NCBI GenBank assembly: GCA_035048485.1
Contig: CM068592.1
Location: forward strand, 36,030,001 to 36,094,000
Direction of reading: 5' to 3'
Source: Pteria penguin
Taxonomy: Eukaryota > Mollusca > Bivalvia > Pterioida > Pteriidae
Length of the DNA stretch: 64,000 nucleotides
In this document: positions 25 through 63,146 of the stretch, piece after piece
How the letters are laid out: each line of letters opens with the position of its first letter
Numbering within the stretch: position 1 is the first letter of the stretch
Made by a program: the position numbers and the translations under genes
Notes under the pieces: model-generated
Database searches by the model: none
Seen by the model: only the letters and a program-made list of their open reading frames with translations
Told to the model about the DNA's origin: nothing

Positions 25-2946
25 GTATCTATCTCAATCCATTAAATGCCAAAACTCTGAATCTTTTAATTTTCATTTTATTCTTTTATGTGTCCTCTCA
101 CCTTTGATGACATATTACCATTGTTAAAGTGAGGACCCCTAACCTCTGATGACATATTACCATTGTTAAAGTGAGGATCCCTAACCCTTGATGACATATT
201 ACCATGATTGTTAAAGTGAGGACCCCTAACCTTTGATGACATATTACCATTGTTAAAGTGAGGACCCCTAACCTTTGATGACATATTACCATTGTTAAAG
301 TGAGGACCCCTAACCTTTGATGACATATTACTAATGTTAAAGTGAGGACCCCTAACCTTTGATGACATATTACCATTGTTAAAGTGAGGACCCCTAACCT
401 TTGATGACATATTACCATTGTTAAAGTGAGGACCCCTAACCTTTGATGACATATTACCATTGTTAAAGTGAGGACCCCTAACCTTTGATGACATATTACC
501 ATTGTTAAAGTGAGGACCCCTAACCTTTGATGACATATTACCATTGTTAAAGTGAGGACCCTAACCTTTGATGACATATTACCATTGTTAAAGTGAGGAC
601 CCCTAACCTTTGATGACATATTACCATTGTTAAAGTGAGGACCCCTAACCTTTGATGACATATTACCGTGATTGTTACAGTGAGGACCCCTAACCTTTGA
701 TGACATATTACCATTGTTAAAGTGAGGACCCCTAACATTTGATGACATATTACCATTGTTAAAGTGAGGACCCCTAACCTTTAATAACATATTACCAATG
801 TTAAAGTGAGGACCCCTAACCTTTGATGACATATTACCATTGTTAAAGTGAGGACCCCTAACCTTTGATGACATTTTACCATTGTTAAAGTGAGAACCCC
901 TAACCTTTGATGACATATTACCATTGTTAAAGTGAGGACCCCTAACCTTTGACATATTACCATTGTTAAAATGAGGACCCCTAACCTTTGGTGACATATT
1001 ACCATTGTTAAAGTGAGGACCCCTAACATTTGATGACATATTACCATTGTTAAAGTGAGGACCCCTAACATTTGATGACATATTACCATTGTTAAAGTGA
1101 GGACCCCTAACCTTTGATGAAATATTACCATTGTTAAAGTGAGGACCCCTAACCTTTGATGACATATTACCAATGTTAAAGTGAGGACCCCTAACCTTTG
1201 ATGACATATTACCATTGTTAAAGTGAGGACCCCTAACCTTTGATGACATATTACCATTGTTAAAGTAAGGACCCCCAACCTTTGATGACATATTACCATT
1301 GTTAAAGTGAGGACCCCTGACCTTTGATGACATATTACCATTGTTAAAGTGAGAACCTATTACCATTGTTAAAGTGAGGACCTCTTACCTTTGACCCTGA
1401 GCACCGGTGTTCTGTCTTTTGGATGAGACAGTAAAAACCGAGGTCCCGTGTCACATTAGGCGTGGCACGTAAAAGATCCCTCACTGCTTCGGGTGGGTCT
1501 GTTGCAAAGGTCTAAATTTGTATGCAATGCATCAGGCAGATGCCGTCATCATATAATGAAATAATCATGGAGTGACGTAAAACAATAATCAATCAATCAA
1601 TCTTACCCTTGATGATATATTACCGTTGTTAAAGTGACCCATCACCTTTGATGATATATTACCATTGTTAAAGTGAACACCTCTCACCTTTGATGACATA
1701 TTACCATTGTTAAAGTGGGGACCTCTCACCTTTGATGATACATTACCATTGTTAAAGTGAACACCTCTCACCTTTGATGATATATTACCATTGTTAAAGT
1801 GAACACCTCTCACCTTTGATGACATATTACCATTGTTAAAGTGGGGACCTCTCACCTTTGATGATATATTACCATTGTTAAAGTGGGGACCTCTCACCTT
1901 TGATGATACATTACCATTGTTAAAGTGAACACCTCTCACCTTTGATGATATATTACCATTGTTAAAGTGAACACCTCTCACCTTTGATGACATATTACCA
2001 TTGTTAAAGTGGGGACCTCTCACCTTTGATGATACATTACCATTGTTAAAGTGAACACCTCTCACCTTTGATGATATATTACCATTGTTAAAGTGGGGAC
2101 CTCTCACCTTTGATGATACATTACCATTGTTAAAGTGAACACCTCTCACCTTTGATGATATATTACCATTGTTAAAGTGAACATGATGATATATTACCAT
2201 TGTTAAAGTGAACACCTCTCAGGGGACCTCTCACCTTTGATGATACATTACCATTGTTAAAGTGAACACCTCTCACCTTTGATGACATATTACCATTGTT
2301 AAAGTGGGGACCTCTCACCTTTGATGATATATTACCATTGTTAAAGTGAACACCTCTCACCTTTGATGATATATTACCATTGTTAAAGTGGGGACCTCTC
2401 ACCTTTGATGATACATTACCATTGTTAAAGTGAACACCTCTCACCTTTGATGACATATTACCATTGTTAAAGTAGGGACCTCTCACCTTTGATGATATAT
2501 TACCATTGTTAAAGTGAACACCTCTCACCTTTGATGATATATTACCATTGTTAAAGTGAACACCTCTCACCTTTGATGATATATTACCATTGTTATAGTG
2601 AACACCTCTCACCTTTGATGATATATTACCATTGTTATAGTGAGGACCTCTCACCTTTGATGATATATTACCATTGTTAAAGTGAACACCTCTCACCTTT
2701 GATGATATATTACCATTGTTATAGTGAACACCTCTCACCTTTGATGATATATTACCATTGTTATAGTGAGGACCTCTCACCTTTGATGATATATTACCAT
2801 TGTTAAAGTGGGGACCTCTCACCTTTGATGATACATTACCATTGTTAAAGTGTACACCTCTCACTTTTGATGATATATTACCATTGTTATAGTGAGGACC
2901 TCTCACCTTAGATATATATTACTATTGTTAAGTCAGAACCTCTCAC
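25..2946 (-). repeat. 42-bp minisatellite carrying a repeated 5' splice site
   Basis: More than 60 head-to-tail units of 42 bp, abutting the donor of USP40 exon 25. On the gene strand each unit ends ATCAAAG and is followed by GTGAGAGG (right part, 1600-2946) or GTTAGGGG (left part, 78-1380), echoing the real junction AAAG|GTGAGAGG. A SINE (1390-1602) separates the two subfamilies. The right part shows two- and three-unit higher-order repeats. At 12-32 the sequence ATACCTCCTAAGGTGA resembles the exon edge ATACCTCCAAAGGTGA. The long ORFs across the array arise because 42 is a multiple of 3 and are not genes. Confidence 0.93.
1390..1602 (+). mobile_element. 5'-truncated tRNA-derived SINE inside the 42-bp array
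   Basis: Shares its body (GATGAGACAGTAAAAACCGA, GGCACGTAAAAGATCC, GGGTCTGTTGCAAAGG) with copies at 41855 and 63520. It ends in a simple (AATC)n tail. The tRNA-like head is missing. Confidence 0.82.
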
Positions 2947-3086
2947 CTTTGGAGGTATACGTCCCCTCTGCAGGAGTAATCTATCTCCATGATGTACTAT
3001 AACTTGCTCTAAACTGGCATCTAAATCATCAAGAACCTCTGCAGCCTCTCCACACCAGTTAGTCTTCTGTAAATGCCACTTCTCAT
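2947..3086 (-). CDS. USP40: USP40 exon 25 (last exon seen; source of the 42-bp array)
   Basis: 140 nt, ending in phase 0. It encodes [20 protein letters not shown] and [14 protein letters not shown] (human WHLRKMDWCYEAGE...GDTLLLIEGQLPP). The donor AAAG|GTGAGAGG at 2945-2946 is the first of more than 60 near-copies of the same boundary. Reading through into the intron meets a stop after 12 codons. Later exons are outside the window. Confidence 0.92.
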
Positions 3087-9000: not shown

Positions 9001-12000
9001 ATCATTTTGCAGACCATCCCACTTGGCCTAATTTGACACAATGGATCCAACCAAAGCAGTGAGAAATCTTTTAAACAATGCCAATATTTACCCAGGTTTT
9101 CTTGGCTTTGCACCAAGCACGCTACCTAATGATCCATACCATACCACCTCGACATTCTACTGAGATTTAGGTAGTAAGTTTAAAGTTAAAGCTGTGTGGT
9201 CATTTTGCAATATAGAGATATCTACCCATAGGGTAGATACAAGAGATATAATGACTGTAACCTACACCAATTCTATGGAAACCGATGGCCAATTATAGAA
9301 ACAAAAATGACTATTCCATAGGGATTATTTGATGCCAAAATAGTTGCATCTGTATGGTGTACAATACCTACACAAATGCGAAATAACTCTGTTTAATGAA
9401 AATCGTGAATGCTTAATTATAGTAAACATATGTATTACACCACAGTGAAATATATCATATACATGTATGGAAAACAATAGGTATGAAGTAAAATTCCCAT
9501 GACATCTTTACCTTTATCACTATCTAATACTCTCTGTAAACTCATACTATCACAGTCAAGGTCAAGGATATCACATACAGCTTGCTTTAGGGAGGACAGT
9601 AGCATATTTCTGGGAAATCCCCTGATGAGTATATTCTGTTGTATTTCTGAGGATATGTTGAGTAGGAGAGGCTCCTGTAGAATACCTGTAGTGACCTGGA
9701 TGCCTTCTACCTATAATATACAAACATGTTCATTAGCATACAGGTTCCTGTAGAATACCTGTAGTGACCTGGATGCCTTCTACCTATAATATACAAACAC
9801 GATATACGTTACATGTTCATTAGCACAGGTTCCTGTAGAATACCTGTAGTGACCTGAATGCCTTCTACCTATAATATACAAACATGTTCATTAGCATACA
9901 GGTTTCTGTAGAATACCTGTAGTGACCTGGATGCCTTCTACCTATAATATACAAACACGATATATGTTACATGTTCATTAGCACAGGTTTCTGTAGAATA
10001 CCTGTAGTGACTTGGATGCCTTCTACCTATAATAAACAAACACGATATACGTTACATGTTCATTAGCACAGGTTCCTGTAGAATACCTATAGTGACCTGG
10101 ATGCCTTCTACCTATAATATACAAATACAATATACTTTACATGTTCATTAGCATACAGGTTCCTGTAGAATACCTGTAGTGACCTGGATGCCTTCTACCT
10201 ATAATATACAAATACGATATACTTTACATGTTCATTAGCACAGGTTCCTGTAGAATACCTGTAGTGACCAGGATGCCTTCTACCTATAATATACAAACAC
10301 GATATATGTTACATGTTCATTAGCACAGGTTTCTGTAGAATACCTGTAGTGACCTAGATGCCCTCTACCTATAATATACAAAAATGATATACGTTACATG
10401 TTCATTAGCACAGGTTCCTGTAGAATACCTGTAGTGACCTGGATGCCTTCTACCTATAATATACAAACACGATATATGTTACATGTTCATTAGCACAGGT
10501 TCCTGTAGAATACCTGTAGTGACCTGGATGCCTTCTACCTATAATACAAACATGTTCATTAGCATACAGGTTCCTGTAGAATACCTGTAGTGACCTGGAT
10601 GCCTTCTACCTATAATATACAAATACGATATACGTTACATGTTCATTAGCACAGGTTCCTGTAGAATACCTGTAGTGACCTGGATGCCTTCTACCTATAA
10701 TATACAAATACGATATACCTTACATATTCAGTAGAACAATTTCCTGTAGACTACCTGTAGTCACCTATGTGCCCTCTGTCTGTTATACACCAACACCAGA
10801 CATCTTGCCTATTCAGTCAGGGTTATTTCACCTGTATGGTGGCTGCATTTACTTTATGTTTTCTTAACAAATTTTACTTGTATGCAATTGAACCCAATAA
10901 AGCAGTCAAGGTTTTTTTACAAACAAAAGTGGATAAAAGACCACAGTATACATTCTGTCTCAAACGACAAGTTACTGATGTGATAATACTGTCTCAAATG
11001 ATGAGTTACTGATGTGATAATACTGTCTCAAATGATGAGTTACTGATGTGATAATACTGTCTCAAACGACGAGTTACTGATGTGATAATATTGATTTATG
11101 AGAAGATTCATTTGTGGAATTTGTTGACTTTACTAATATGGTGGTAGTGGCCAGGGTCAAATCATAAAGAGAACTGGAAGACAAATATACCTGAAGAGAA
11201 TGGCCTACTAATATGGTGGTAGTGGCCAGGGTCAAATCATAAAGAGAACTGGAAGACAAATGTACCTGAAGAGAATGGCCTACTAATATGGTGGTAGTGG
11301 CCAGGGTCAAATCATAAAGAGAACTGGAAGACAAATGTACCTGAAGAGAATAGCCTACTAATATGGTGGTAGTGGCCAGGGTCAAATCATAAAGAGAACT
11401 GGAAGACAAATGTACCTGAAGAGAATAGCCTACTAATATGGTGGTAGTGGCCAGGGTCAAATCATAAAGAGAACTGGAAGACAAATGTACCTGAAGAGAA
11501 TAACCTACTAATATGGTGGTAGTGGCCAGGGTCAAATCATAAAGAGAACTGGAAGACAAATGTACCTGAAGAGAATAGCCTACTAATATGGTGGTAGTGG
11601 CCAGGGTCAAATCATAAAGAGAACTGGAAGACAAATGTACCTGAAGAGAATAGCCTACTAATATGGTGGCAGTGGCCAGGGTCAAATCATAAAGAGAACT
11701 GGAAGACAAATGTACCTGAAGAGAATAGCCTACTAATATGGTGGCAGTGGCCAGGGTCAAATCATAAAGAGAACTAGAAGACAAATGTACCTGAAGAGAA
11801 TGGCCTACTAATATGGTGGCAGTGGCCAGGGTCAAATCATAAAGAGAACTGGAAGACAAATGTACCTGAAGAGAATAGCCTACTAATATGGTGGCAGTGG
11901 CCAGGGTCAAATCATAAAGAGAACTGGAAGACAAATGTACCTGAAGAGAATAGCCTACTAATATGGTGGCAGTGGCCAGGGTCAAATCATAAAGAGAACT

Positions 12001-15000
12001 GGAGTACAAATGTACCTGAAGAGAATAGCCTACTAATATGGTGGCAGTGGCCAGGGTCAAATCATAAAGAGAACTGGAGTACAAATATACCTGAAGAGAA
12101 TAGCCTACTAATATGGTGGTAGTGGCCAGGGTCAAATTATAAAGAGAACTGGAGTACAAATATACCAGAAGAGAATGAGGGTTTTTTAATGTAAAACCCC
12201 TGTTTATGAGAAATTTATACTTACCAGCATCTATAACTATTTGCAATATACTCGAACTCCTACGGTCATGTCCGAATAGTTTTCGTACGAATAGACTACA
12301 TAGTCTACGCACGAGTTACCTTCCCTAAACATGCTCTTCAGTTTATATGAGGATAAAGAACCTCCTATTACTAACAAACATTAGTGGGGAGGCGGGAAGG
12401 GTTATGCTGGTAAGTATAAATTTCTCATAAACAGGGGTTTTACATTAAAAAACCCTCAGTTTATATCAAAATTTATACTTACCAGCATCTATAACTATTT
12501 GCAAAAGCCAGAATTTTAAGCTTTACACCAGGAGGAGGGTAATGTTAAAAAGTCTTTAAATAAAGAAATAACACTCACCCAATCTAGTGTCTTATATTTT
12601 GATTCTTTTTCCTCCTTTTTGCCCAATCCACAGTCTCTAGAAGAGATGCTCTAGCAAACTTATCTTCATTCCACACCACATCTTTCATGTAAAAAGATGT
12701 AAATGTTGTTTCAGAAGCCCAGTGTGCTGCTTGCAAAATGTCTTTAATCGATGCACCGTTGAATAATGCCCAAGAGGATGATAAACGTCTAGTATCATGG
12801 GCTCTCACATTTGATAGAGTTTGATTAGGCATGTTCTCATAAACAAAACGTATAAGAGACACAATCCATCTTGATATTGTTGATTTTGCAGCTGCTTTAT
12901 TTAAGCCCTTTTGATAAGTGATGAATAAATTGAGAACTTGTGATCTTGGAATCTTAGTTCTTTCAATATAGAGTTTTAAAGCCCTGCATGGACATAGGAG
13001 AAGATCCTCAGAGTCTGTTGCATAAGAACTAAAATCCGGAATAAAATAAGGTTTCCATGCCTTTCCAATTCGTTGTGTTTTAGCGAGAAACTTTAAGTTA
13101 GGAAGTAATCTCACTCCATGCTTGTCAAATCTCATGTTTTCTTTATCAATCGATAAAGCATGTAATTCACTAACTCGAGAAGCTGTAGCAAGCGCAAGTA
13201 AAAATACTGTTTTCTAAGTTAGGTATTTTAATTCACAAGATGACATTGGCTCAAAAGGATAACAAGTTAAAGCCATGAGAACTGACGGCAAGTCCCAATT
13301 TGGAATTAGCGGCCTGACGCTAGGACTGCTATTAAATATTCCTTTAATAAGATTTGATAAAGTTTTATCCTGACTTACAGAGAACTCGTGTTTTCCTTTA
13401 TGTATTGATGCAATCGCAGATCTATATCCTGAAATAGTTGTTGCTTTTACATCCCTTTGTTCATGTAGATACACAAAAAAGTCCGCAATATTCCCTATAG
13501 AGGCAAAAGAGGGATTGACAGATTGTTGGTCACACCAATTTCTGTAGATCGCCAATCTAGCATCATACAGCTTTCTTGTGGATGGTCTTTTGGCTTTAGC
13601 GATATATTCTTTAGCTTTTTTAGAAATTCTTTTTGCAGATACTTGTGACTTGATATTTTCCAAGCTACCAGATTTAGACTTTCTGGATTTTTGTGTACTA
13701 TTTGTCCTCTTTGCTGACTTAACATTTTTTGAGTTATTGGTAGTTTTCTGGGGAAGTCTATTAGTAACGACAGAAGATTCGGGTACCAGGATTGTCTTGG
13801 AGCTAATGGTGCTATTAGAATCAATACACACTCTTCTGTTCGAACTTTCCTCAAGACTTGCGGTATCAAAATCGGTGGTGGATATGCATATGCATAAAGA
13901 TTTATCCAACTGACACTCAGAGCATCGGTTGCCCATGCTTCTCTGTCTGGGTAAGGGGAGCAATACACTTGGAGCTTCTTGTTCTCCTTCGTTGCAAACA
14001 AATCTATGTTTGGTTGAGTGAAGACTTGAAACACAATTTTTACTATGTGCGAGTCCAAGCTCCACTCTGTTATCCTTATTGTTATTCCTCGAGAGAGATT
14101 GTCTGCTAATATATTGCGTTTCCCTGGTATGTGAGCTGCCTGAATCGAAATATTGCAGTCCCTCGCCCACTGAAGGATCTCCCATGTCAGAGAGCATAGT
14201 TGTAACGACCTTGTCCCCCCTTGTTTGTTCATGTATGCCACTACAGTTGAGTTGTCGCACCTCAACAGTATCCTTTTGCCTATCAAAAGATGCTGAAATT
14301 GTTGGACAGCAATTTGAATGGCCTTCATTTCTAGCCAATTTATGTGATTTTTCTTTTGAAGAGGACTCCATGTGCCTGAAATTTGATGGTTGTTCATATG
14401 TGCACCCCAGCCCGTTAGTGACGCATCCGTCCAAATAACTATGGGCTGAGGGAGATGCAATGGTTTCCCTATTAATAAATTGTTCTGGTTCAGCCACCAT
14501 TTGAGATGTTGTATAAGAGAATCCTTGACTGGGATTGGTTGTAGTAAACTGTCCTTGTGGGGGCTCCAAAAACAAAGGACATAAAATTGAATAGGGCGCA
14601 TATGTAAGCGAGCCCAAGGTACAAGGTCTATACATGAAGTCATCAGACCTAAAAGACGTAAAAATCTCTGTGCTGGATGCTGAGGCTGAGATACTATGAT
14701 TTTGACCTCCTCCATTAGATTGATGCATCTCTCCCAAGATGGATAAATCATCCCTTTGTTGAGATTGAATATTGATCCCAGATACTGGATAATCTGTTTG
14801 GGTTCCAACTGAGACTTGGAGAAATTCACAATTAGTCCTAAATGTTCTATCGATTCCAAGACAATATTTCTCTGGACTGATAACAGTTTTTGGCATTGAT
14901 TTTTTATCAGCCAATCGTCTAAATACATGTAGATTTGAATCTGATGAGCTCTGAGATAACTTCCTACGACAGACATCAGTTTTGTGAAGATCCTTGGTGC

Positions 15001-30000: not shown

Positions 30001-33000
30001 ACACACAGATCCAAAAAGTCCTCCTAGAAAAATCCACAATCAGACTTAGTCATTTTGCCATAATGTTGGTTGACATGTAATTAATGCTTTATAACAGTAT
30101 GGGTGATGGAACAAAGTAGACTTATGTTATTGACCTATGAGATAGATCATACCTCACAAACCACATGGGACAACACAACCAAAAATCCTTTGGAAGGTGT
30201 GTCTGAAATCCTGCAATCTCATTGGTCCACCACGACAGTGATGTACCAATGAAACAACACCTAATATTGGCAATACGGGGTTATGTTACCCATGTCGTAA
30301 TATGGCGGCGTTCAAAGACATAAATTATACCAGGTTTAAGGTGCTGCAAGATTTCAAATTAAAAGATTTTCAGAAACATATTTTGCAAGCTTTGGTTATG
30401 GAGAGACATGATGTCATCATATCTGTTAAAACAGGAATTCAAACACTTCCTTTTGTAAGTAGAATTGATTTCATTGGTTGTGAGGGCAGTGTTTGATGAC
30501 ATGAATATTAATAAGTTCTGAAGCTTTTTGCTTGTATTACCCCATGGGGTTTGTGAGGTACGATCCACCCCGTGTATTTCACACTTTGGTTAATGACTGG
30601 TTTACTGCAAAGTAAGGGTTTCCATGTCTTTTCTTGAATTTTCAAAGAATTACAATAAATTACTAAAAATTTACCTCTCTCTCACTGACTTTACCACAGA
30701 CAGTACATATTATCTGAAAATAGACACAACCTCAATATGTAGAGCATATTCTCACAAACTCAAGGTATAAACAATTCTTAAACAAACCTAGTACATAAAG
30801 AATTCTTTGTAGAACGAACAAATAACAGCAAAACAGAGAGTATTAATACAATCCTAGTAGCACAATGACTATTTATTTTGTTTTGTATACAACAATAATC
30901 ACAGAACTTACATAGCAAAATATAAACCACATTAAATGCGTATTTCATGATAGAGAAATAACAGTAATTTATACTTTGATAACAGTGAATCCTTTATATT
31001 CATACAGGGTACATATCTGATTGACAATCCATAGTACAGCCTGTTAATTACACCCCTCCCTCCCTCTTCAACACACATGAGTACACACAAAAGGTTTATT
31101 CTGACAATTATGATGATGGATCTCAGGGCTTTTTTCCAGAAATTGGGAAGAAGCTAAGCCTTTCATATGGAAAAATTTACGCATGATTTTGAAGCAAACT
31201 GGGAAAAAGTTGACTGACATTATGAAATATACAACGAATAAAAAGTATATGTTAAAAACTAAACATCTTTGTCGTTCTTCTGGCAAATCGAATCGGAATG
31301 TTATTTTAAGAAGCAATTCATCTTTTGGTTTGAGTATTGTCAATTTCTACCAAAAAGTGTATGTTTTACTAAAAGAACAACAAATTAAATCACATGCATG
31401 GACTTTTGCTGTAATAATTATGTCAGGAAGAGGGATAATTATTTCTTTATTTGGGGAAATTTGCTAACTCAGATTGGGAAAGAAGAAGGCTTTTTTTCAA
31501 CTGGGAAGCCACCGAATATCTGTCTCAATTATATATGATTAAAAAGCCCTCAATCCCTATTACAGCAGTAATACAATATACCTACCTGATTGACAATTTT
31601 GCCATGATACAGTCTATTTATCAGATCCTGCCCACTGGTAACAATACAGTATACAAAATACCTACCTGACTGACAATCTTGCTATGATACGGTCTATTTA
31701 TCAGATCCTGCCCACTGGTACCAATACAATATACAATATACCTACCTGACTGACAATCTTGCCATGATACGGTCTATTTATCAGATCCTGTCCACTGGTA
31801 CCAATACAATATACAATATACCTACCTGACTGACAACTTGCCACGATACGGTCTATTTATCAGATCCTGTCCACTGGTACCAATACAATATACCTACCTG
31901 ACTGACAATCTTGCCATGATACGGTCTATTTATCAGATCCCACCCACTGGTACCAATTCAATATACAATATACCTACCTGACTGACAATCTTGCCATGAT
32001 AAAGTCTATTTATCAGATCCCATCCACTGGTACTAATACAATATACAATATACCTACCTGATTGACAATCTTGCCATGATACAGTCTATTTATCAGATCC
32101 CGCCCACTGGTACCAACCAAAGATTCCTCTATAGCACTGAACAAGATCCTGTTTAACTCCTGAACATCATGCTGTTGTAACTCCTGATAAAAGAACAAAA
32201 TACATCAGTGTGTAAATGACTTTCCTACATTTGTGTACCAAGCCACAGGCAGTTAGGTATATCAGTTACACTGCTGTTCTTGTTTTTTAATCATTATTAT
32301 TCTAGGTTTAATCAGTATTCCTTATAAGAATATTTCTGTCACCAGATGTTAGTATATACAGTACAGTTCAGTCTTATAGACCTTGGTAAATACCATACTG
32401 TGCAGTCTAACAGACCTTGGTAAATACCATACTGTGCAGTCTAACACACTGGGACTAGTTTCACAGCAGAACTAATGACACTTAATATATCGTGCAATAT
32501 CTGAAGTTCTTTAGTAAAAAGAGCTGAATGAAACTAGAATACCGGAATAATTGAGATACACACTTACGTCTATTTAATAAATGTACAATAATACTACATG
32601 TGTAGCATTGCCATACAATTCTTTTGGACCAAAACATTACAGTATACATGAGATATGGTGAAGAAACATTTTTTGGAGGTTTTTCCAGGTAAAAATGATA
32701 GTTAATCTAAGTTAACTATATCTTACAGTATGTCTTTTTCGCAAAATTAATGGCTCACAGTTTCCTTACCTTATCCAAGGCATGGTGGATAGGTAGAAAG
32801 TGATTATATTCTTTTTTATTGTGGTTGTCATTTACATATTAAGTTTACATTAAATGAATTCTTACCTCATTATTAGTCCATCCAAAACTATTGGTTAAAT
32901 CAGTGGTGAGTACGCTCTGTCTATCACTAAGAAGAAGGCGGACAAATAATCGCTGTAGCTCCAGGGGAATTACACGAACCTAGCAATATAAGATCATGAA

Positions 33001-36849: not shown

Positions 36850-38050
36850 GCTCTGCCGATCTGGCAGCGCGCTGAGACCGTTGATCGGTAGGAGTCCCGA
36901 CTAGCAGTCAGAGGGGATGATGTTAAGGACCATGTCTCCTCTGAAAAAAATCAACAGGGCCCTTCATATAGTCCTCACCGCCCTGTTAATAAGAATACAA
37001 CGTTCAAGTAAGTCTGTAGAATACTGTAAAAAGGGCCCAATATAAGACTTACTGTCTTCTTTTTATGTTCGCTAGATCATATTGTCGACGGCGAACGCGC
37101 TTCGCTATAGATAAAATTATCGGAACCTTTGACCCTCTAAAGTTTGTACACAAGATCACTATAGAAACTGGGATGGGAAATTCCATTGGAGACATATTGT
37201 TAAAAAGTAACATTCCCGAATTTTGATGGAAGTTGTGAATAGGACCTATATAACATTTTCAAAGGTTTTTCTAAGTTTATGATACCTCTAATTCTGAATT
37301 AAAAGTTCAACGTTATCTGTAAATGTTTCGTATGAGTGTCCAACACGTTAGTACAGGCTCCGAGAAATCGAACCAACTAAGACATGTAAATACCATATGA
37401 TGAGAGTCTTGGGACATTATCATGGAAATTTACAAGAAGAAATCTAAAATCGTTACATTCATGGTAAATATTTGTATGAATTCTATTATCAATCATCTTA
37501 TTGTTTATGGTCAAGAGCGGTGTGCATGTCTGTATCACAAATATTAGCTTAATTGAAGTTGGGGCTGGTATATGTCAGTAACATATCTTTCAGACTCAGG
37601 ATCGTCAATAACTATGATGTCATCGAGATACCTAGCGGTATCATTGAACATATTGATAATTGTGAATAAAATGCATGAAGAATGCACAAGGTCCCTCTCA
37701 TCACAGTATAGAAACAAATCTGCCATAAGAGGTGCGCAGGTAATACACACAGAAATCCCAACTACTAGCTAATAATTCTTGTCATCAAACTGCACATAAA
37801 TATTATCTATCATGAAAAAATCGATGGTTTTACCTAATTCAGCGGTATCATTGAACATATTGATAATTGTGAATAAAATGCATGAAGAATGCACAAAGTC
37901 CCTCTCATCACAGTGTAGAAACAAATCTGCCATAAGAGGTGCGCAGGTAATACACACAGAAATCCCAACTACTAGCTAATAATTATTGTCATCAAACTGC
38001 ACATAAATATTATCTATCATGAAAAAATCGATGGTTTTACCTAATTCAGC
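36850..38050 (-). pseudogene. Decayed retroelement reverse transcriptase with a tandem duplication
   Basis: Minus-strand reading from 38045 to 37090 gives FMIDNIYVQFDD, CAPLMADLFLYCDERD, ARYLDDIIVIDDPESERYV, then SSYGIYMS, CTNVLD and ISHPSFYSDLVYKL, with several stops and frame breaks. The order matches an RT family common in cnidarian and mollusc genomes (RY-I/L-DD catalytic box); Penelope-like origin is possible but unproven. A 208-bp segment (about 37634-37841) is repeated directly at 37842-38049. The far 3' part is very degraded and includes a GGGC/GCCC hairpin near 36955-36990. Confidence 0.65.
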
Positions 38051-38373
38051 GTAAGTCCAGTATTTTTTTGTGAAGTGTATTGTTTGTTGAAAAAAAATCC
38101 CGAATTATTCGAAGTACAGACATGACAGAAGTATGTTTTAGATTATCTGTTAAATATAATTGAACTTATATGATCTCTACAGTATACACTTGCATCTAGG
38201 GAATCTTATATATACAAAGCACATACCAGTGGCGGATCCACGATCAGAAAAGGGTGGGGAAGGGCACGTGCATTAGCCAAACTACTCGGCCATTTTTTTT
38301 TGTGCCAAATCTGGATTTTTATTGGTAGATATGTTGCAAAAAGGAGAGCGGGGAACCCCTATAAATCTGCCTT

Positions 38374-38461: not shown

Positions 38462-38462
<1 letters not shown>

Positions 38463-38492
38463 CTGATCCCAAGAATGACTACTGGGTCGATA

Positions 38493-42012: not shown

Positions 42013-42061
42013 GGTCAAGGTCAATTGTCTTGGTACCAAAATGTAGTACTTGTTAAGGTGA

Positions 42062-42101
<40 letters not shown>

Positions 42102-49182: not shown

Positions 49183-52100
49183 CTGGAATACAAAAACTCA
49201 AATCATCAAATGAACCATCATACATTGTGCTGGCCAAATTCAAGATATATATCAAATTTCAAGAAGTATTTCTTTTCACATGGGTAACCTGTCAAAGAAT
49301 ACTGATTCATGGCACACTTTGTAACCTAAATATATATGTTACTGTGACATATATTAATGATCTATAAATGGTTTCCATGGATGTTTGATTACATTCCCTT
49401 ACAACTCGTAGCACTATCTGTGATTGTTTCAAATTCTGACTTATTTCTGAACATCGTTAAGGGTAAGTTGGTGTGTGTGTGAATTTTTTTTTGTTTATTT
49501 TTTTTAAAGGTTTGAGAAAAATTTGGACAAATTTTGGGAAAAATCAAAGAAATCTTCAATGGGAAGGGTCTTTATAATGGATCTGATTTGAAGGTGAAAA
49601 ACAAAACACTGTCATGGACACTTTAATGTACTAGGCCAACCTTGACTTGTGCTTTTGTCTCATGTTCCACTTACCTACAATATGAATGACTGATATGATA
49701 TGAATTGGTCTTGGAAGAAGTTTCAAACCCATAAACTTCAACCTCCTAGATGCAATATTAACATTATTATAAAATAAAACATTCATGCAATGTCCAGGTC
49801 AATACCACAAATTCATTGGGGCAATAAGTAAGCTATTGTCACATTGAATCTATATAAATTATAGTGAAACAAGAGTTATCAGAAAAAGAACAGAACTTGC
49901 TGATGGCTACCAAATTTAAATACTACAAAAATTGTTGGACCTTTCTATGATACAGAAAATAAGATGATATACTTCAAAACATCACTTACCTACAGCAGGG
50001 GAGTCGTTATCATTGGAGTGGGCTTTCCCTAGACACTGCTTACTGTTAGCATGTCACTTGCCTATAGAGGGGGAGTCTTTATCATTGGAGTGGGCTTTCC
50101 CCACACACTGCTTACTGTTAGCATGTCACTTACCTATAGAGGGGGAGTCTTTATCATTGGAGTGGGCTTTCCCCACACACTGCTTACTGTTAGCATGTCA
50201 CTTACCTATAGAGGGGGAGTCTTTATCATTGGATTGGGCTTTCCCCACACACTGCTTACTGTTAGCATGTCACTTACCTATAGAGGGGGAGTCTTTATCA
50301 TTGGAGTGGGCTTTCCCCACACACTGCTTACTGTTAGCATGTCACTTACCTATAGAGGGGGAGTCGTTATCATTGGAGTGGGCTTTCCCCACACACTGCT
50401 TACTGTTAGCATGTCACTTACCTATAGAGGGGGAGTCGTTATCATTGGAGTGGGCTTTCCCCACACACTGCTTACTGTTAGCATGTCACTTACCTATAGA
50501 GGGGGAGTCTTTATCATTGGAGTGGGCTTTCCCTAGACACTGCTTACTGTTAGCATGTCACTTACCTATAGAGGGGGAGTCTTTATCATTGGAGTGGGCT
50601 TTCCCCACACACTGCTTACTGTTAGCATGTCACTTACCTATAGAGGGGGAGTCTTTATCATTGGAACACACTGCTTACTGTTAGCATGTCACTTACCTAC
50701 AGCAGGGGAGTCGTTATCATTGGAGTGGGCTTTCCCTAGACACTGCTTACTGTTAGCATGTCACTTACCTATAGAGGGGGAGTCTTTATCATTGGAGTGG
50801 GTTTTCCCCACACACTGCTTACTGTTAGCATGTCACTTACCTATAGAGGGGGAGTCTTTATCATTGGAGTGGGCTTACCCTAGACACTGCTTACTGTTAG
50901 CATGTCACTTACCTATAGAGGGGGAGTCTTTATCATTGGAGTGGGCTTTGCCCACACACTGCTTACTGTTAGCATGTCACTTACCTATAGAGGGGGAGTC
51001 TTTATCATTGGAGTGGGCTTTCCCTAGACACTGCTTACTGTTAGCATGTCACTTACCTACAGCAGGGGAGTCTTTATCATTGGAGTGGGCTTTCCCACAC
51101 ACTGCTTACTGTTAGCATGTCACTTACCTATAGAGGGGGAGTCTTTATCATTGGAGTGGGCTTTCCCTAGACACTGCTTACTGTTAGCATGTCACTTACC
51201 TATAGAGGGGGAGTCTTTATCATTGGAGTGGGCTTTCCCTAGACACTGCTTACTGTTAGCATGCCTCAGTTCTAATGTCTATTAAAAAACACAGTAATAT
51301 CAAACATTACACAAAGAATGAAAGTATTATATGTCAGTGTAATTAATATGTATGTTTACATTCATTTTTTTTCCAAATAAAAAGAGGCAAGAAAATAGGT
51401 TTGAGAAGTTTGTGAGAAGAAACCTGACAAACCATTGTCTTTAATCTTAAATATTTGTTGATTTTGAAGAGGAAGTTTAGTGAAGTTTACCTAAGATGGG
51501 AGGGGGGGGGGGGGAGTTGGGACACATACTCAACAAGAAAAGGATGTTGCATAATGAAAATGTGTCATATCTCTTCAGACTTACATCTTTTGGTTACAAT
51601 GACTCCTGTATCAACATACTATGGTTTTAATTATGTTTGATAGTTAGATAGATAAATACAATATTGTTGCACCTGGAAAATTTCACCCACACGACAACTG
51701 TAATCATAGTTGATTTCTTTTTACCTATATATCTACAGAAGGTATATGCTGGTGAAAGAACTTGAGATTACCTTGAGAAAACCAGAAACCTACAACAGGT
51801 ACAACAGTTGACCTTGACTACTATATGTATCTGGACAAAAGACCTACCCTGACCAGAGAATGGACCCCGACCTGACATAGGTAAGAACAGATTAAGTTCC
51901 AGCACAGCATTTTGACCTACTCAGCCACTGTGACCAGATATCTGATCCAGACCAGACAGAAGTAGGAATGGAATTACAAGATCCAGCACAGCATTCTGAC
52001 CTACTCAGACATTGTGACCACAGATCTGATCTAGACCTAACAGAGGTAGGAATAGAATAACAAGATCCAGCACAGCATTTTGACCTACTCAGACATTGTG

Positions 52101-55100: not shown

Positions 55101-58100
55101 TAATACTAAATATAGTGAAGTACATCAGAATATAATCCTTTGCAGTTAAATTTCAAAGACTATTTCAACTTTATTTCTACTACAGGCTATCTATGAAGGA
55201 AATTCAAGTAAAAAGATGAAAAAAAATCTTTAAGGTCTATCTGAGTGTTTTCCAAAAGAAGTCCTCTGAAAATTAACCACATAACTTGAATATTGGAACA
55301 AGAAGTGTTTGCGAAACAATAATGCCCCAGAGCATAAGCTGTATCCAAATATTAATGAATATTGTGTGACATGACAGTATTCTATAAAAAGTTGAGTTAT
55401 TATTACAATGTACGTAATGTCGTGATTATAAAGAATCTAGTTACCCTATATCCAGTATATACCAACGCCTTTTCTATACTGAGCAGCTAGTTATTGAAAT
55501 ATCTACTGATACAAAAGTGTTATAGGTAAAAAGAAGGAAGTGAGCACACCTTAAGACCTTCACCCCAGAGAAGTGAGTACTAAACTGAGTAACATCCAAG
55601 AAAATTAAGTACTAATCTGAGATTTTACTGTTTGATTAACTACTAGAGAAAACATGGAATAGTATCATTATTATGCAGTGTGCCAGACTAGCCCACTGCC
55701 CCAACACTAGAAAAATAGTGACTGGGCTTGTAGAAATTAGGTGAACACTATCCCTATAAGTTTAGAGAAAATTTCAATGCAGTTTCAAATATTCATCTCA
55801 AAATTATTGATATGTAATCAACTTGCTGGAATAAATCTCAAAATTTACAAACTATTTCCTGTGTTGTTCCTTTGTTTTAAAGCATTTTCATCAAACTTTC
55901 TGGCAAATTTCATGATCCATTGAGATTTTGTATAACATCCTGTGATATGCCAGTAGATTTCTGGTTACCAAGGTAGGACTTCTTCATCTATCACCATGAG
56001 AGGATAAAGTAAGAGAACTTACTGAATTTTAAAGTTGAAAAGGAAGGCAATTTTTAAATAAAGAGTTACCACTCGAGTTGAGTTTTCTTTTCTTATTGTC
56101 AGAAAATAGATGGGACTAGTAAAATCTGCTTCAGGGTAGTCATTTTACTGAAGAACTAGCCTGACTTGTTAAGTATTATAAAAAGGTTTCTGGGGTTGAC
56201 TGATTATGAGGAAACCCCAAGTTTTCATTAAGATTATGATTATTAGACATCTTACCTAATCTACACTACTTTGTCGCTTAATGTCATCTCTAGATAACTT
56301 CTTTTATAGTTTAACATTCATATATATTTATGGTACAAAAATTATTAATCTAAACCCCCCCCCCTCCTTTTTCATTTCAAATGTATGAATGTGATGTGAA
56401 AAATCATACATGTAAATCAAAACTACAATGCTCAAAGAACATTTGTGACTCCAATCGATATTTCAAAAGTATGACTCCTAAAAGGCAAAGCTATCTCTGT
56501 ATGTTCCATTGCTTTACAATATATACAGTTTGAAAAAAAAGGTACCTAATCAAACAATTTGAACAACAAATAAGAAAAAGTAAATCAAAATTAGAATAGC
56601 CACTTCAGGATGAATACACCCCTCTCCTGGAAACAACATCATGTATTGCTAATTATGAGGGAATTATATATATATATATATAAAATCACTGTGACTTTCA
56701 CCTGAAGGTCAGAGTCACAACACATCTTTTCTTGTGATGTTTGAAACCAGCCCAAGCAATAATGATTTTAAATGTTAAAGTCCTACAAATTACTCTTCAA
56801 AATATCACTAATAGTTAAAGTTTAAGAAGAAAATGCTCTTTGATAAAGAGGTCTGAAAAGATTGTATAATTTTAAAGCTGATGTTACTACAAATATATAA
56901 AATGTAAATGTCTTCCCAGTTCAAAAGATATCACTTAAGTCTTATAGAAAGTGCTCTATAATGTTAGTAAATTGTCAAGGTCACATAGGGAAAAAAGTTG
57001 CCATCATTTTAAAACTTATGTTATAAGGTCAAGAGGTAAAAATTGCTGATACTATTTGAAGTTCTTTGAAATTTAATGAAATATGAAACCTTTCTTTTTC
57101 CTTAAGTACAAGAGGTAGTGTTCTCATTCACAAAAGCTTGATGGATGGACCAACTAATAGGGAGTTTCTGATATTCCCCAAACTTTATGTGTTGGGAGGA
57201 ACAATTTCCTTATAAGGTAAAAACTAATCAATGTTGGTCAAGAATAATAACTTACTGAGTTAAAGTTAATGACTGGCATACTCTTCATTACTTTTTTTTT
57301 TAAATGATTATCAGTTTTAAGAAATTTGACTTTCAAAGCTAGATGGTAGATGCACACTGTGTTTTTATCAAAGCACTTAAGCCAACGGAACACTCTACTA
57401 ATGATGCTATTTCACACGCTATGTAGATAGAGAGAGAGAGAGTGTGGGTGATAAACAATATGTCTACCTCCTTCATGTACTGCCATTGTCCAGCGCCCGA
57501 GTCACAGCGTATAAAGGTCACTTGGTTATAGGAGGCATCCACACATACGTTATCATCGGTCATTATTTGTTGTTTACTGGTATAGGAGAATACCTAGAGG
57601 TCATGCACACAATATTATATCACACAAAAATGCCACAATGACTACTGCACGTCATTTCTACTGTAATGATATCTTCACAGGTAATGCTTTCCAAGCCATT
57701 AATATGTGCAACAAATGCCTTTACTTCATGACTGTTTTCTTTAAGCTAACGCACAGAGTTGTGCAACTGAACAATCAAAATTTACGACTATTGATTTTTG
57801 GATATTTGATTATAAACACTAGCAAATCTATGCATTAAAGACTGCAACCTATTAATGGCTTTTATAAACAAGAACAGATGAAGGCACTAACAAGAAAAGG
57901 TTTAGGTTGAAGACAATGTATCACAGAACCTAGACCTTCACTAAGCAATATAATACAACAGACTGGTGTTTTGCAGCATGCTGAAAAACAAGTAGTAAGA
58001 AATCATATCGCTACATGGGTGCATCAAACAACTACAGGAGTTGTCTCCCCGGATGTGGAGCTCTTCAGTTTTACCTCTTTGTCATACTCCCACTTCTGAT

Positions 58101-61100
58101 TGCCACCTAGACCATGGCATTGAAATAATTTTACAGGTCCACTAACTGAGGATACATCCAGACAGACGTCATCTGTTTGTAATGCTTTCTTTTTAGTATA
58201 TGAAAACACCTGGAAATTGTCGCACATGGTACATTAAGAACAGAATACAACATCTATAGATTTTTTCAAACCTGAGCTGGAAGTCAAGTGAATAGATTAG
58301 TATTAAGTCATATTCATTCAACAAATATACATGTATTACAAAGCAAAACAAAATGTTATCAAGGCACTGTGAGACCAACATATGGATTATTATTTGTTAT
58401 CATATATGACAATCTGGGTTTTTAACCCAGGTAGCTCTATGAATAAAATGTTTATATCGTTGTAAGAAATTCCTTGGCTCGAATCCATGTCTGGCCTATC
58501 TTTTTCCCTGCTTGTTATACACATAATAAATCTTCTGACAATTATATCAAATTATACACAAGATGTTATTACTTTAAGTCTAGACAAAGCCACAAAGAAA
58601 TGAACACTTTGTCCTTTCCAAACATCACAGAACATTTTCAAGACTCCATCTCATAGGCTAATTTAACTTCTTGTATTTGTATATCTGATTAATTAAACTC
58701 ATGAAACATATGGTAAAATGTACTTTCAGGTATCTGGTTACAAAGTTTTTGTAAAGATTGCCAGTAGAACTGAACACTTTCAACACTGACTCAATATATA
58801 AACTATGCTTTCAGTTTCACATACTTTGTATCTAATGGCAAATTTGGTCTTCTTCTTCATGCACTTTCATAGTTATATCCTTACACACCTTAATGTAATA
58901 TATGCATTAATATATTCATGCAAAGAATGACAAACATTCACATATGAAACCAAGATGACATACCTGGTTACCCCCCATTCCATGACAATGGACTAATCCT
59001 ACTTTTTCTCCACTCTTTCTACCCATACTGTCTATACACTGACCAGTTTCTTTATTTCTTATCTGAAAAAAAAAAAAGAATTTGAATATTTGTACTGACA
59101 GCCGGTCTGCTTGCAAATGAAATGATTAACATTAAATCTGATTGTAATAATACATCTAACCAAGATTTTTCTATCTGTAGCGTGACAGCATTTGCTTCAT
59201 GCATGACACAGAAATTCAGACATACACAACAGACCTAACCCAGGCATTTGGGAATCTTTTACGTGTCTTCTGTAAGCATTTTGGTTTTTTGTCTCGTTTG
59301 ATAAATAGGACACCAAACCAGTTGCTGGTGGGGTTTGAATATTGGACCTCTTGACATACAGCCCTTCTCTTCCATAGACATGAATTCAAAATAATATTTG
59401 TTGGAAGCACCAATAACAGTTAAACTTCAACATCTTTGACCTGCACCCTTACTATGGGCAGACTGAGTGGATTAAACTGACCTCTTCTCAAGCATGACAT
59501 TCGAGCAGTATCCATGACTTTGTATAATGAAGACAATAGGTTGTTCCACTTACAATTTCTAAGCAATGATATTCTGTTGAGATCTGTGATTCTGTGATGT
59601 TCAGTGATCTGTGAAATTTAATATCTGATTACTCACCTCCTCAAGAGCATTGTGTTCTAGTGGCATCAGTGTGTATGGTGTTCTAGTGACATCTATGTGC
59701 ATGGTATTCTAGTGACATCTGTGTACATGATATTCTAGTGACATCGGTGTACATGATATTCTAGTGACATCGGTGTACATAGTATTCTAGTGACATCTGT
59801 GTACATATCCCATAAACATCTATATATGTGGTATTCTAGTGATATCTATGTACATGATATTCTAGTGAAATCTGTGTACATGGTATTCTAGTGACATCGG
59901 TGTACATAGTATTCTAGTGACATCTGTGTAAATGGTGTTCTAGTGACATTGGTGTAAATGGTATTCTACTGACATCTGTGTGCATAGAATTCTAGTGAAA
60001 TCCATGTGCATTGTATTCTAGTGGCATCTGTGTACATGGTATTCTACTGACATCTGCATGTATGGTATTCTAATGACGTCTGTACATGTTATTCTAGTGA
60101 CATATGGGAGTACGGTGTTCTAGTGACATCTGTGTGTATGGTATTCATGGTATTCTAGTGACATCTGTGTACATGATATTCTACCGACATCTGTGTAAAT
60201 AGTATTCTAGTGACATCTGTGTACATGGTATTCTTGAGACATCTGTGTATACATTTTATTCTAGTGACATCTGTGTACATGATATTCTAGTGACATCTGT
60301 GTGTATGGTATTCTAGTGACATCTATGGTGTGTAAGGTACTCTAGTGATTTCTGTATAAATGGTATTCTAGTGACATCTGTGTACATGGTATTCTTGTGA
60401 CATCTGTGTACATGATATTCCAGTGACATCTGTGTGCACTGTATTCTAGTGACATCTGTGTACATGGTATTCTAGTGACATCTCTGTACATGGTATTCTA
60501 GTGACATCTGTGTGCATTGTATTCCAGTGACATCTGTGTACATGGTATTCTAGTGATATCTGTGTGCACTGTATTCTAGTGACATCTGTGTACATGGTAT
60601 TTTAGTGACATCTGTGTGCACTATTCTTGTGACATCTGTGTGCACTGTATTCTAGTGACATCTTTGTACATGGTATTCTAGTGACATCTGTGTACGTTAT
60701 TCTAGTGACATCTGTGAACATGATATTGCAGTGACATCACTGTGTACAGTATTCTAGTGATATGTGTGTAAATTATCTGTGTAAATGGTATTCTACTGAC
60801 ATCTGTGTGCATTGTATTCTAGTGACATCTGTGTGTATGGTATTCTAGTGAATTTTGGTGACTAATAGAATCTATCTGATTTGGTGTCTGGTGATGACTG
60901 AAAAATGCTCTTACCTAAATGTCCAGTTAATTGAGTCCTTATCAAGGCTTGCAGAATGATTATTTTTCTCCCATATGTACTCTTACCGACAAATTCGTTT
61001 GTAAACATTGACATGTGCTTTTTGTGCATATTACCACACATCTGACCCATTTAACGGAAAAACCAACTCATCTCTATATTTATTCATTATGTTAGTGAAC

Positions 61101-63146
61101 ACCAACAACAATACCTTACTCAGATCGAAACACATATATCAATGAATACATACAAAGATATTCAAGTTGTACTTCACCATACATAATCAACCACTATAAA
61201 CACCACAAGACCACAAAAGCATATATTACACTGATGCACAATGATGTCAGCATAATGCCAGTAACATTTCCTGCTAAGTGCTTGTTGCTTATTTTCCACC
61301 CCACTGTGGATTACAGACTGATTATTTTGGACAAACAATGAGGATAATTCTGTAAACATGAGAGAAATATGTATCTTGATATTTATAGCTTTTGTGTAAT
61401 CCTCTCCCTTAGTGCATGGTATACAAGTGACATCTGTGTGTATAGTATTATAGTGACACATGTAAGGAAATTTATAATTTCTGTGTACTCACCTCCCCTA
61501 GTGCACGATATTCTAGTGGTTTCTGTTACAGATATTTATAGTTTGTGTACTCACCTCTCCTAATGCATGGTATTCTAGTGGCATCTGTGATTCTGGATAC
61601 ACATTCTCTAGGTACCACTTAAAACTCTTGCAGCGTAACCTCTCCCTTAATTCCTTTCTTTCTGTGATGTCACCATAGCTTGTACTTTTTACACCTAAAG
61701 CAGAGAAATGACCATATCACAAAAAGACCTACTCAGATGTATGATTGGTATTTAAATCAGGAATGTAACACACATAAATACTGATCAGGAATAAAGACAT
61801 ATTATACTGTATTAAATAAAGTTTTATCTCAGGGTTTAAACATCATTTCCAATCCCATTTTCTTTTAAATTAAGAACAGAAAATTCCAAATGTCAATCCT
61901 GGTATTAATAAAAATAAGATGTGTATGTGAAATATGAATGCCTTCGGCAGCAACAAAGTCCAAATAAGGCAAATTTTGCAATGTCCTTTATCTTGATTAC
62001 ACCCCATCCCATGGGAATACACATGTGAAATATGGAAGTCCCATCTCTTACGATTCATAAGTTATAACCAATGTTAAGGTTTTTTAAATGCAGGTCTAAA
62101 GGTCTTAGTCAAGGTTACAAGATATAATAATTATGGTACCAATGGAAAGGTTTTGTCACAAGGAGTATGCATATGAAATATTAAAGCCCTATCACCTACC
62201 ATTCAAAAGTTATAGCATGGACTATTTATTCATAAATTTTGATCAAACTCCAAGGGAAAGGCAAAAAAGTCAAAAACTTTTTTGTACTAGTAGAAAGGTA
62301 TTCCCACAAGATATACACATGTGAAATATTAAAGCTCTATCACTTAGCATTTAAAAGTTACAGCATAAGGTCTTTTTCCTAAATACAGGCCAAATTCCAA
62401 TGTCAAGGTCAGAGGGTCAAATTTTATTGTACAAAATGAAACGTCTTCCCACAAGAAATACAAATGTGAAATATGAAAGCCCTATCATCTACATTTACAA
62501 TTTTATGCATCTTTTATTGAATGGGACGGAATGACAATCAGACAGACAACCCAAACAAGACGGAACATAAAAAATAGAAGTTTGTTGCTTTGTATAGTAC
62601 ACATAAAGATGATTAAAATCATGTCTGAACTGATGATATCCCTTTTTTATATATTCATGGTAGTTTTAAAAAGAGGTCTGTATGCTTCGTTCTTAAAGTT
62701 ATGCGAGATTAGTTTATGCAACACTAATGCCACGACAGTCACATTTAACTTAAATAAGACTGAATTCTTACAATGGGATAGACAGATGAAAATTGATCTC
62801 AGTTCTTTCTAAACCATGTTAGCTGTCTTTACTTTGTCTTTTTTTATTTGACATTTTAAGAATAAATTCCTAGTTAGATAGTAGAGGGTCTTTAACAATT
62901 GACTATTAAAACTCAACTCTTAAGCATTTATAAACAAATTTATCATTTTTATGTTTATACAGTACCTGGATTTATCTTATAGAAGAATTCTTTGTACTCG
63001 TCCATCCAGACCTCAACGATTCTCTGTGTGTTATGATTGATGATTCTGGCCACGCCCCCTGGCCAGGAATATGGAGACGTCTTACGGAACACATGACCAA
63101 CACGAGAACATGTCACAATGAATATCTTCCCACCACACATCCATAT
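49127..63146 (-). CDS. GALNT1: Polypeptide N-acetylgalactosaminyltransferase, GALNT1/13 type (3' half)
   Basis: A Golgi enzyme that transfers GalNAc from UDP-GalNAc to Ser/Thr, the first step of mucin-type O-glycosylation. Seven exons are visible: 62966-63146, 61555-61694, 58964-59062, then 58075-58209 and/or 57468-57593, then 51200-51278 and 49127-49182. With one beta exon they encode about 229 (first version) or 226 (second) residues plus a stop. The first exon is the end of the catalytic domain ([11 protein letters not shown]). The rest is the linker and three beta-trefoil repeats of a ricin-type lectin domain with QCID, VCLD and QCLG CLD-like motifs. It aligns without gaps to recalled human GALNT1; GALNT13 is equally possible. 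The upstream catalytic and transmembrane exons are outside the window. Confidence 0.9.
49988..51260 (-). repeat. 72-bp minisatellite repeating a GALNT lectin exon and its donor
   Basis: About 17 units. On the gene strand each contains the 63-nt coding stretch [20 protein letters not shown] plus Ile and ends CTATAG|GTAAGTGACATGC (variant CTGTAG|GTAAGT). Read through, each unit has an in-frame TGA just past its donor. The real exon is the high-coordinate end unit, which alone has the acceptor and the TLELR codons. The plus-strand ORFs across it are artefacts of the unit length. Confidence 0.95.
51200..51278 (-). CDS. GALNT1: GALNT exon: start of lectin gamma repeat (source of the 72-bp array)
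   Basis: 79 nt, entered in phase 0 and left in phase 1. It encodes [20 protein letters not shown] and KDSPSI (human [25 protein letters not shown]). The acceptor is TTTTTTAATAG at 51279-51280 and the first donor CTATAG|GTAAGT at 51198-51199. The donor recurs every 72 bp downstream. Confidence 0.88.
51279..51830. other. GALNT intron segment
   Basis: AT-rich intron with a G run at about 51502. Nothing else recognisable. Confidence 0.5.
51835..53105. repeat. 84-bp minisatellite
   Basis: About 14 units, diverged at the left and nearly identical from 52300 to 53100, containing CCTGACAGAGGTAGGAATGC and CATTTTGACCTACTCAGACA. It lies in the GALNT intron before the gamma exon. I found no match to any GALNT exon, unlike its neighbours. 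Confidence 0.92.
53106..57467. other. GALNT intron, single-copy sequence
   Basis: About 4.3 kb of AT-rich intron. Short ORFs carry no conserved motif. An (AT)n run lies near 56668. A GTCAAGGTCA-type interspersed-repeat relic may occupy 56690-57180. Confidence 0.45.
57468..57593 (-). CDS. GALNT1: GALNT exon: lectin beta repeat, version B (duplicate, probably alternative)
   Basis: 126 nt, phase 0 to 0. It encodes [20 protein letters not shown] then [13 protein letters not shown] (42 residues). It has the same start and end motifs as version A but has diverged strongly inside and lacks GGNQ. Good splice sites (CTCTAG and GAG|GTAGAC) and an open frame argue that it is functional. Equal phases allow A or B to be used singly, or both together. 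A (GA)n tract lies just downstream at 57425. Confidence 0.85.
58075..58209 (-). CDS. GALNT1: GALNT exon: lectin beta repeat, version A
   Basis: 135 nt, phase 0 to 0. It encodes [20 protein letters not shown] then [15 protein letters not shown]. This is the version closest to vertebrate GALNT1 (45 residues, CHHLKGNQLWEYD). The acceptor is CCAG|GTGTTT and the donor GAG|GTAAAA. Confidence 0.9.
58425..58500 (+). mobile_element. tRNA-like SINE head, decayed
   Basis: TAGCTCTATGAATAAAATG resembles an A box region and TTGGCTCGAATCCATG a B box, in tRNA-like spacing. The remainder of this intron (58210-58963) shows nothing else. Confidence 0.45.
58964..59062 (-). CDS. GALNT1: GALNT exon: lectin alpha repeat
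   Basis: 99 nt, phase 0 to 0. It encodes [20 protein letters not shown] and [13 protein letters not shown], with the CxD and QxW-like core of a ricin repeat. Confidence 0.92.
59165..59400 (-). mobile_element. Decayed SINE (minus strand)
   Basis: GGGAATCTTTTACGTG and GGGTTTGAATATTGGACC match the SINE core and B box of the copy at 63520-63755, with many changes. Confidence 0.6.
59636..60860 (-). repeat. 24-25-bp minisatellite derived from a GALNT exon edge
   Basis: About 48 degenerate units reading TATTCTAGTGACATCTGTGT on the plus strand. The last 30 nt of the exon at 61555-61694 reads GCATGGTATTCTAGTGGCAT then CTGTG. At the far left (59636-59660) a unit is again preceded by a donor-like CTCACCTCCTCAAGAG. 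Confidence 0.92.
61400..61554 (-). repeat. Extra copies of the GALNT linker-exon edge with donor
   Basis: Two or three longer units, each with CTCACCTCC/TCTAGTGC-type sequence (gene strand GAG|GTGAGT) joined to the ATTCTAGTG motif. This bridges the true exon and the short-unit array. The sequence between (60860-61400) is ordinary AT-rich intron. Confidence 0.82.
61555..61694 (-). CDS. GALNT1: GALNT exon: linker (source of the 24-25-bp array)
   Basis: 140 nt, ending in phase 0. It contains [20 protein letters not shown] and [20 protein letters not shown]. The donor is GAG|GTGAGT at 61553-61554. The last 30 nt are the seed sequence of the downstream array. Confidence 0.92.
61990..62530 (+). 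repeat. Interspersed repeat, same family as 25560-25975
   Basis: Three partly degraded internal units containing TGTGAAATATGAAAGCCCTA and AAAAGTTATA, ending near GACAGACA. Flanking intron (61695-61990 and 62530-62965) holds nothing else. Confidence 0.6.
62966..63146 (-). CDS. GALNT1: GALNT exon: end of catalytic domain
   Basis: 181 nt, entered in phase 0 and left in phase 1. It starts [20 protein letters not shown] and contains [16 protein letters not shown] and [12 protein letters not shown], the Gal/GalNAc-T motif end and the adjoining catalytic region. Confidence 0.93.

Follow-up and report, generated by a model that had tools for sequence, protein, structure and literature searches.

Tandem repeats that span exon-intron boundaries have been described from amphioxus, where the globin paper terms them mirages, after the Adh3 work. 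It also reports such repeats at other loci, differences in their length and splicing that is apparently undisturbed, and it includes a model of intron gain. The PGBD5 paper adds the troponin C and PGBD5 mirages. In these accounts, the unit is 10-72 bp long for Adh3 and 150-160 bp for the globins, and the inner copies are homogenised, with the edge copies excluded. In human segmental duplications, too, minisatellites lie at exon-intron boundaries, and there they alter the introns and transcripts of recent paralogues (PMC2812944). Among molluscs, no report of exon-edge arrays occurs among the literature matches listed by a mollusc-directed search, which left subscription papers mostly uncovered. 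Other minisatellites include a 27-bp repeat in an intron of an abalone TSSK1-like gene, for which an exon origin is unmentioned in the text available, those in introns of an earthworm metallothionein gene, which accompany fourth-exon duplications absent from the transcript and, as far as described, do not form an exon-edge array, and those found near alternative exons in C. elegans. An earlier note on the DNA considered here described five arrays seeded at exon-intron boundaries and knew of no described system producing them. That statement no longer stands, as the arrays fit the published amphioxus mirages and boundary repeats are known in human segmental duplications.

Genes and splice junctions of the window

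Two neighbouring minus-strand genes, USP40 and a GALNT1-like gene, lie in the window analysed here, a 64-kb stretch of bivalve DNA with a GC content of 35 % (base counts). Exon mapping relied on tblastn, with GALNT queries and four USP40 proteins from bivalves, and on splice signals to refine the boundaries. It gave 31 exons and 61 splice junctions, all on the minus strand, with a GT start in 31/31 donors and an AG end in 30/30 acceptors. Among the best 120 of 2468 matches to the joined USP40 exon translations, the highest was to Pinctada imbricata (54 % identity over 91 %; 950 bits). Next came Mytilus proteins, with scores of up to 717 bits and identities of 42-45 % over 91-100 %; for two Mytilus records that are partial, the values are 48 % over 75 % and 54 % over 43 %. 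Scallops stand at 41-43 % and oysters at 41-42 %. On these protein identities, the window comes from a bivalve, one that is probably nearer to the pearl oysters than to the other bivalves listed. The closest solved structure to the second gene is GALNT1 (E 9.5e-84). Two successive lectin exons of this gene (58075-58209 and 57468-57593) are alike, both starting with VFSYT and aligning to the same part of GALNT1, and look like alternative exons, perhaps mutually exclusive ones.

Arrays accompany three exons of USP40 (4, 18 and 25) and two of the GALNT gene (Table 1). The exon numbers in the earlier note fit if the ATG exon is counted as exon 1, and its GALNT positions, 61555 and 51200, agree with the protein mapping. 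All five exons align with USP40 or GALNT1 proteins and the frames are open in the four that were read (exons 4, 25 and 18 and the 51200 exon), in line with the view that an exon edge was copied and the complete exon kept.

Table 1 Array-bearing exons, arrays and outlying exon-edge copies in the window
Feature	Position	Strand	Basis
USP40 exon 25 (...GRIPPK)	2947..3086, donor 2946	-	tblastn with Pinctada USP40 P0121; AG..GT boundaries
42-bp array, intron 3' of exon 25	100..2946	-	TRF; AAAGGT counts; donor scores
Likely exon 25 edge relic past far end of 42-bp array	13..28	-	15/16 match
USP40 exon 18	9512..9710, acceptor 9710/9711	-	tblastn and splice signals
85-bp array, upstream of exon 18	9711..10817	-	TRF, junction BLAST; 13 aligned copies including exon
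USP40 exon 4	32058..32183, donor 32057	-	tblastn and splice signals
80-bp array, downstream of exon 4	31571..32057	-	TRF, junction BLAST; 7 copies including exon
GALNT1-like lectin exon	51200..51278, donor 51199	-	tblastn and splice signals
72-bp array, downstream of 51200 exon	49982..51199	-	TRF, junction BLAST; 18 copies including exon
GALNT1-like exon	61555..61694, donor 61554	-	tblastn and splice signals
26-bp array	59648..60851	-	TRF; unit-exon match; inner units without junction
Single donor-bearing copy of 61555 exon edge	61482..61519	-	89% over 38; donor score
Donor-bearing copy, far end of 26-bp array	59625..59678	-	weak tblastn E 0.14; donor 59636

BLAST comparison of the ±40 bases around each junction against the 64-kb window, at E<=0.01, distinguished junction-spanning copies at 5/61 junctions. 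Spanning matches comprise 6/6 of those to the exon 4 donor, 12/17 to the exon 18 acceptor, 16/16 to the exon 25 donor, 17/18 to the GALNT 51200 donor and 1/24 to the GALNT 61555 donor. At the same threshold and within the same window, none of the remaining 56 junctions has a spanning copy and 51 have no match at all. The GALNT 51278 acceptor has 17 matches, none of them spanning, those shown being the 72-bp array from the other end of the exon, and four junctions have one opposite-strand match each (15-18 bases, none spanning).

Structure of the arrays

All five of the proposed arrays were recovered by TRF at the positions given, and the claim that each lies at an exon edge is confirmed in part. 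It does not extend to the whole set in its strict form, as the 42-bp unit contains about 5 exon bases and the 26-bp unit lies off the junction. Three arrays clearly span a junction, with units of 85 bp (acceptor), 80 bp (donor) and 72 bp (donor). Both kinds of exon edge are thus copied, an acceptor in the array of exon 18 and a donor in those of USP40 exons 4 and 25 and of the 51200 exon. Many of the 42-, 85-, 80- and 72-bp repeats keep AG and GT signals, which are absent from the inner units of the 26-bp array, units that do not span the boundary.

In gene orientation, the 85-bp unit (9724-10766; 12.5 copies in TRF) runs from the end of the intron through the acceptor into exon 18, of which it includes about 44 bases. 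Its outermost copy is degraded (70/83 matching; 10695-10777), and an extra degraded unit even farther out found no support, with 1232/3000 controls scoring as high. The 80-bp unit (31571-32116; 6.9 copies) comprises about 60 bases of exon 4, the donor and about 20 intron bases, and the 72-bp unit (49982-51263; 9.5 and 8.3 copies in two TRF rows) 64 exon bases, the donor and 8 intron bases. Copies in these three arrays are 89-100 % identical to the exon copy, with the exception of one 72-bp copy (68 % in a fixed window adjoining a shortened unit). Three of the 72-bp copies (at 51127, 50984 and 50493) do not differ from the exon copy at all (100 % identity), which means that exon and array share a recent exchange or a recent expansion.

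The 42-bp array (100-2951; 68.2 copies in TRF) starts at the exon 25 donor, its unit being made up of the exon bases, the donor and the intron that follows. Two blocks can be distinguished, with AAAG/GTGAG in the near half and AAAG/GTTAG in the far half. AAAGGT occurs 55 times in the array, 29 times as AAAGGTGAG and 22 times as AAAGGTTAG. All but one of the former (28/29, exon 25's own included) lie at or above position 1500, the other being at the far end near 101, while all 22 of the latter in the array lie below 1500. The TRF consensus does not match exon 25 even at E<=1 and matched no exon above chance level, and the tie to exon 25 consists of contiguity with its donor and of the near-half units. 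For the likely exon 25 relic past the far end, none of 3000 control windows scores as high, against 13/3000 for the exon bases alone. With so short an exon part, the seed of this array may be intronic. Used as a protein query, the open reading frame of the array gave no match at E<=0.001 among 7996 scored candidates.

The GALNT array that had been described as 24-25-bp units starting exactly at a junction is neither contiguous with its exon, from which about 700 bases separate it, nor built on the junction itself. Its 26-bp unit (19.4, 24.0 and 3.0 copies in three TRF rows) corresponds to 24 bases inside the 61555 exon and ends 11 bases before the junction (E 1e-7), with additional chance-level matches to two other exons. 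Among the donor-like sites there, two represent donor-bearing copies of the 61555 exon edge, one near the exon and one at the far end.

The units are unrelated to one another, as the earlier note had it, with no unit-unit match at E<=0.1 among fourteen families, and each of the 85-, 80- and 72-bp units has its own exon as the sole exon match at E<=1. The other nine families gave no convincing exon-edge match by junction BLAST and unit-exon comparison. Their best exon matches are 14 bases inside exon 12 for a 34-bp unit (E 7e-4) and 12 bases in exon 9 on the opposite strand for a 36-bp unit (E 0.012). A 58-bp unit matches 13/14 bases over the exon 4 donor, which is at chance level (E 0.33). Another TRF row, at 32137-32187, extends over the exon 4 acceptor and encodes the peptide LQQHDVQEL; the presence of this peptide in 4/4 bivalve proteins indicates that the row is old and unrelated to the arrays.

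Further repeats in the window include two 37-bp arrays in USP40 intron 1 (34717-34853 and 35435-35597), which are mutually inverted (82 % over 125 bases), and a recent duplication at 37634-38051, with a 207-bp unit in two copies at 98 % (TRF). A DIRS-like retroelement (11131-18955) contains a reverse transcriptase frame, for which 2453 relatives reach E<=0.001, has a tyrosine-recombinase match under the Pfam cut-off and inverted copies near 12211 and 17573, and apparently lies within a 75-bp array of USP40 intron 17, which it splits in two.

Origin of the arrays

The arrays are most readily explained, at a probability of about 0.8, as mirage-type arrays in a bivalve, formed by local tandem duplication at exon edges and subsequent multiplication and homogenisation in the intron. 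A small local tandem duplication would have happened to span an exon edge or, for the 26-bp array, to lie just inside it. The intronic copies would then have increased in number and been kept alike by the processes that act on other minisatellites (slippage, gene conversion or unequal exchange), with selection keeping the sole complete exon. The mechanism of duplication, and the disregard of the copies by splicing, are parts of the explanation that we infer. Edge material that may have escaped homogenisation can be seen in the outer 85-bp copy and the likely 42-bp relic, and none in the 80- and 72-bp arrays, where the far-end copies are undegraded (95 % and 94 % to the exon copy, respectively). 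Sequence common to the joints, with array ends inspected by eye in two of the five arrays, amounts to 0 bp in the 72-bp and about 2 bp in the 80-bp array. The intact exon was indeed seen as the terminal unit and the copies in gene orientation, but neither constitutes independent evidence. Tandem duplication always gives direct copies, and duplication across one edge leaves one complete exon, kept by selection, at the end of the array.

An assembly artefact, with copies added or misjoined, has a precedent in the aberrantly assembled mirage that the amphioxus globin authors report from a draft genome. However, several percent of difference separates the individual copies, the 42-bp array is ordered into two sub-families, an edge copy of the 85-bp array is degraded and the frame of the array exons stays open, all of which make an artefact extremely improbable, although the exact copy numbers may be wrong. 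Even less credence, indeed next to none, can be given to a single mobile element that carries a repeat and inserted repeatedly at junctions. The window does contain the DIRS-like retroelement and several other arrays, but the units are unrelated and four of the five match their own exon.

Chance placement of seeds was modelled with one unit-length seed per family, placed at random on 45,262 bases after the arrays and the retroelement had been collapsed. Twelve settings were used, with 14, 12 (minus two retroelement-linked) or 9 large families, uniform or GC-matched placement, and 1 or 5 bases required per side. Three dinucleotide runs and the TRF rows of 1.8-2.4 copies at 6431, 25856, 26727, 32137, 37634 and 43191 were omitted before the count, the 2.5-copy row at 32362 was kept, and overlapping TRF rows were merged by hand. 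Random placement gives 0.55-1.16 expected junction-spanning seeds over the twelve settings, with P(>=4) of 0.0015-0.022 and P(>=5) of 0.00005-0.004. The four or five junction-linked families of 12-14 exceed this, and chance alone may be insufficient. Strictly, however, the 26-bp array falls outside a count of five and the 42-bp array barely qualifies for one of four, and for the three clear arrays only, a Poisson calculation on the same expectations gives P(>=3) of 0.018-0.112. The excess is suggestive; it is post hoc and comes from one window chosen for the pattern, and since the window was raised because of the pattern, it represents a lead and not a result. The earlier suggestion that GC-rich exon edges seed such arrays explains little. 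Exon GC is 0.42 vs 0.34 in the collapsed window, and the small effect of GC matching raises the expectation for fourteen families merely from 0.93 to 1.16.

The same excess would be expected if splice junctions were favoured, either by a process linked to transcription or splicing (for example R-loops or pausing) or by the better survival of repeats that bear AG/GT. In a human study, an 8.4-fold excess of introns with a length that is a multiple of the surrounding repeat is reported, and it is argued that expansions of dual-AGGT repeats are less harmful since they can be removed by splicing (PMC10809524). Nevertheless, with a single window selected after the pattern had been noticed, a P(>=3) of up to 0.112 for the three clear arrays, 56/61 junctions without a spanning copy and no sequence common to the units, favoured junctions are quite unlikely as the explanation. 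The active process at splice junctions that the earlier note entertained is neither needed nor excluded by the data. Beyond this locus, and only as a rather unlikely conjecture, mirage-type arrays could be a general product of animal genomes and not a peculiarity of amphioxus, with exon edges over-used as minisatellite seeds, because arrays form more often at transcribed junctions or survive by being spliced out, and feeding intron gain in many phyla.

Copied splice sites and comparison with known systems

The copied splice sites of the arrays were scored with matrices built from the other 26 exons of the window. The exon 4 donor scores 11.0 in 7/7 copies and the GALNT 51200 donor 9.0 in 17/18 copies (exon included in both), the eighteenth having GC for GT. 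For the exon 18 acceptor, the scores are 7.3-8.6 in 12/12 aligned copies, a count that leaves out the exon and the degraded outer copy. When scored in the opposite role, the same AG/GT of the 72- and 85-bp arrays also falls in or close to the authentic range, as acceptor (3.7-4.2 vs authentic 3.3-13.8) and donor (4.3-4.9 vs authentic 4.7-12.2), respectively. Such scores would suit working decoy, alternative or recursive (AG/GT) sites. However, conservation of the splice motif does not exceed that of the remaining unit, with equal or higher conservation in 19/77 windows of the 72-bp, 14/67 of the 80-bp, 21/47 of the 85-bp and 15/49 of the near half of the 42-bp repeats. Use of the first repeat site would lead to an in-frame stop at all four exons checked (4, 25, 18 and 51200), and most donors in the far half of the 42-bp array have the weaker form GTTAG, scoring 4.2 (80 of 95 sites listed). 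The amphioxus mirages reportedly leave splicing undisturbed. A splicing role for the copies thus finds no support in these sequence comparisons and appears very unlikely. Selection on the copied splice motifs found no support either, the motif windows being unexceptional in conservation.

The arrays in this 64-kb window are a real mirage-type set with an ordinary explanation and, as far as the mollusc-directed search shows, new for a bivalve. The presence of three to four of them in so short a stretch suggests a recurrent way for introns to gain multiple copies of splice sites. New introns could be built from such copies, which can also mislead gene prediction and RNA mapping and which offer a natural test of how the spliceosome passes over dozens of near-identical sites beside the right one.

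Related systems share some of these features. The dual-specific AGGT arrays of UBC and VCX3A likewise consist of tandem units that each carry AG/GT, but the UBC units are coding, whereas the copies here are intronic and reading into the first meets a stop (PMC10809524). Intron gain by tandem genomic duplication likewise copies AG/GT (PMC3443670); it makes a new intron, whereas the arrays here are known as intronic copies only. The closest likeness is to the amphioxus mirages of Adh3, the globins BflGb6 and BflGb9, troponin C and PGBD5, which are minisatellite-like duplications across 5' or 3' exon edges, as here, with AG and GT kept in many copies, as in the 42-, 85-, 80- and 72-bp arrays. Unlike these, the present arrays have a bivalve host, reach about 68 copies, and number three to four in two neighbouring genes. 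Mirages having been reported from cephalochordates, the bivalve arrays differ in the place where they are found and not in their build.
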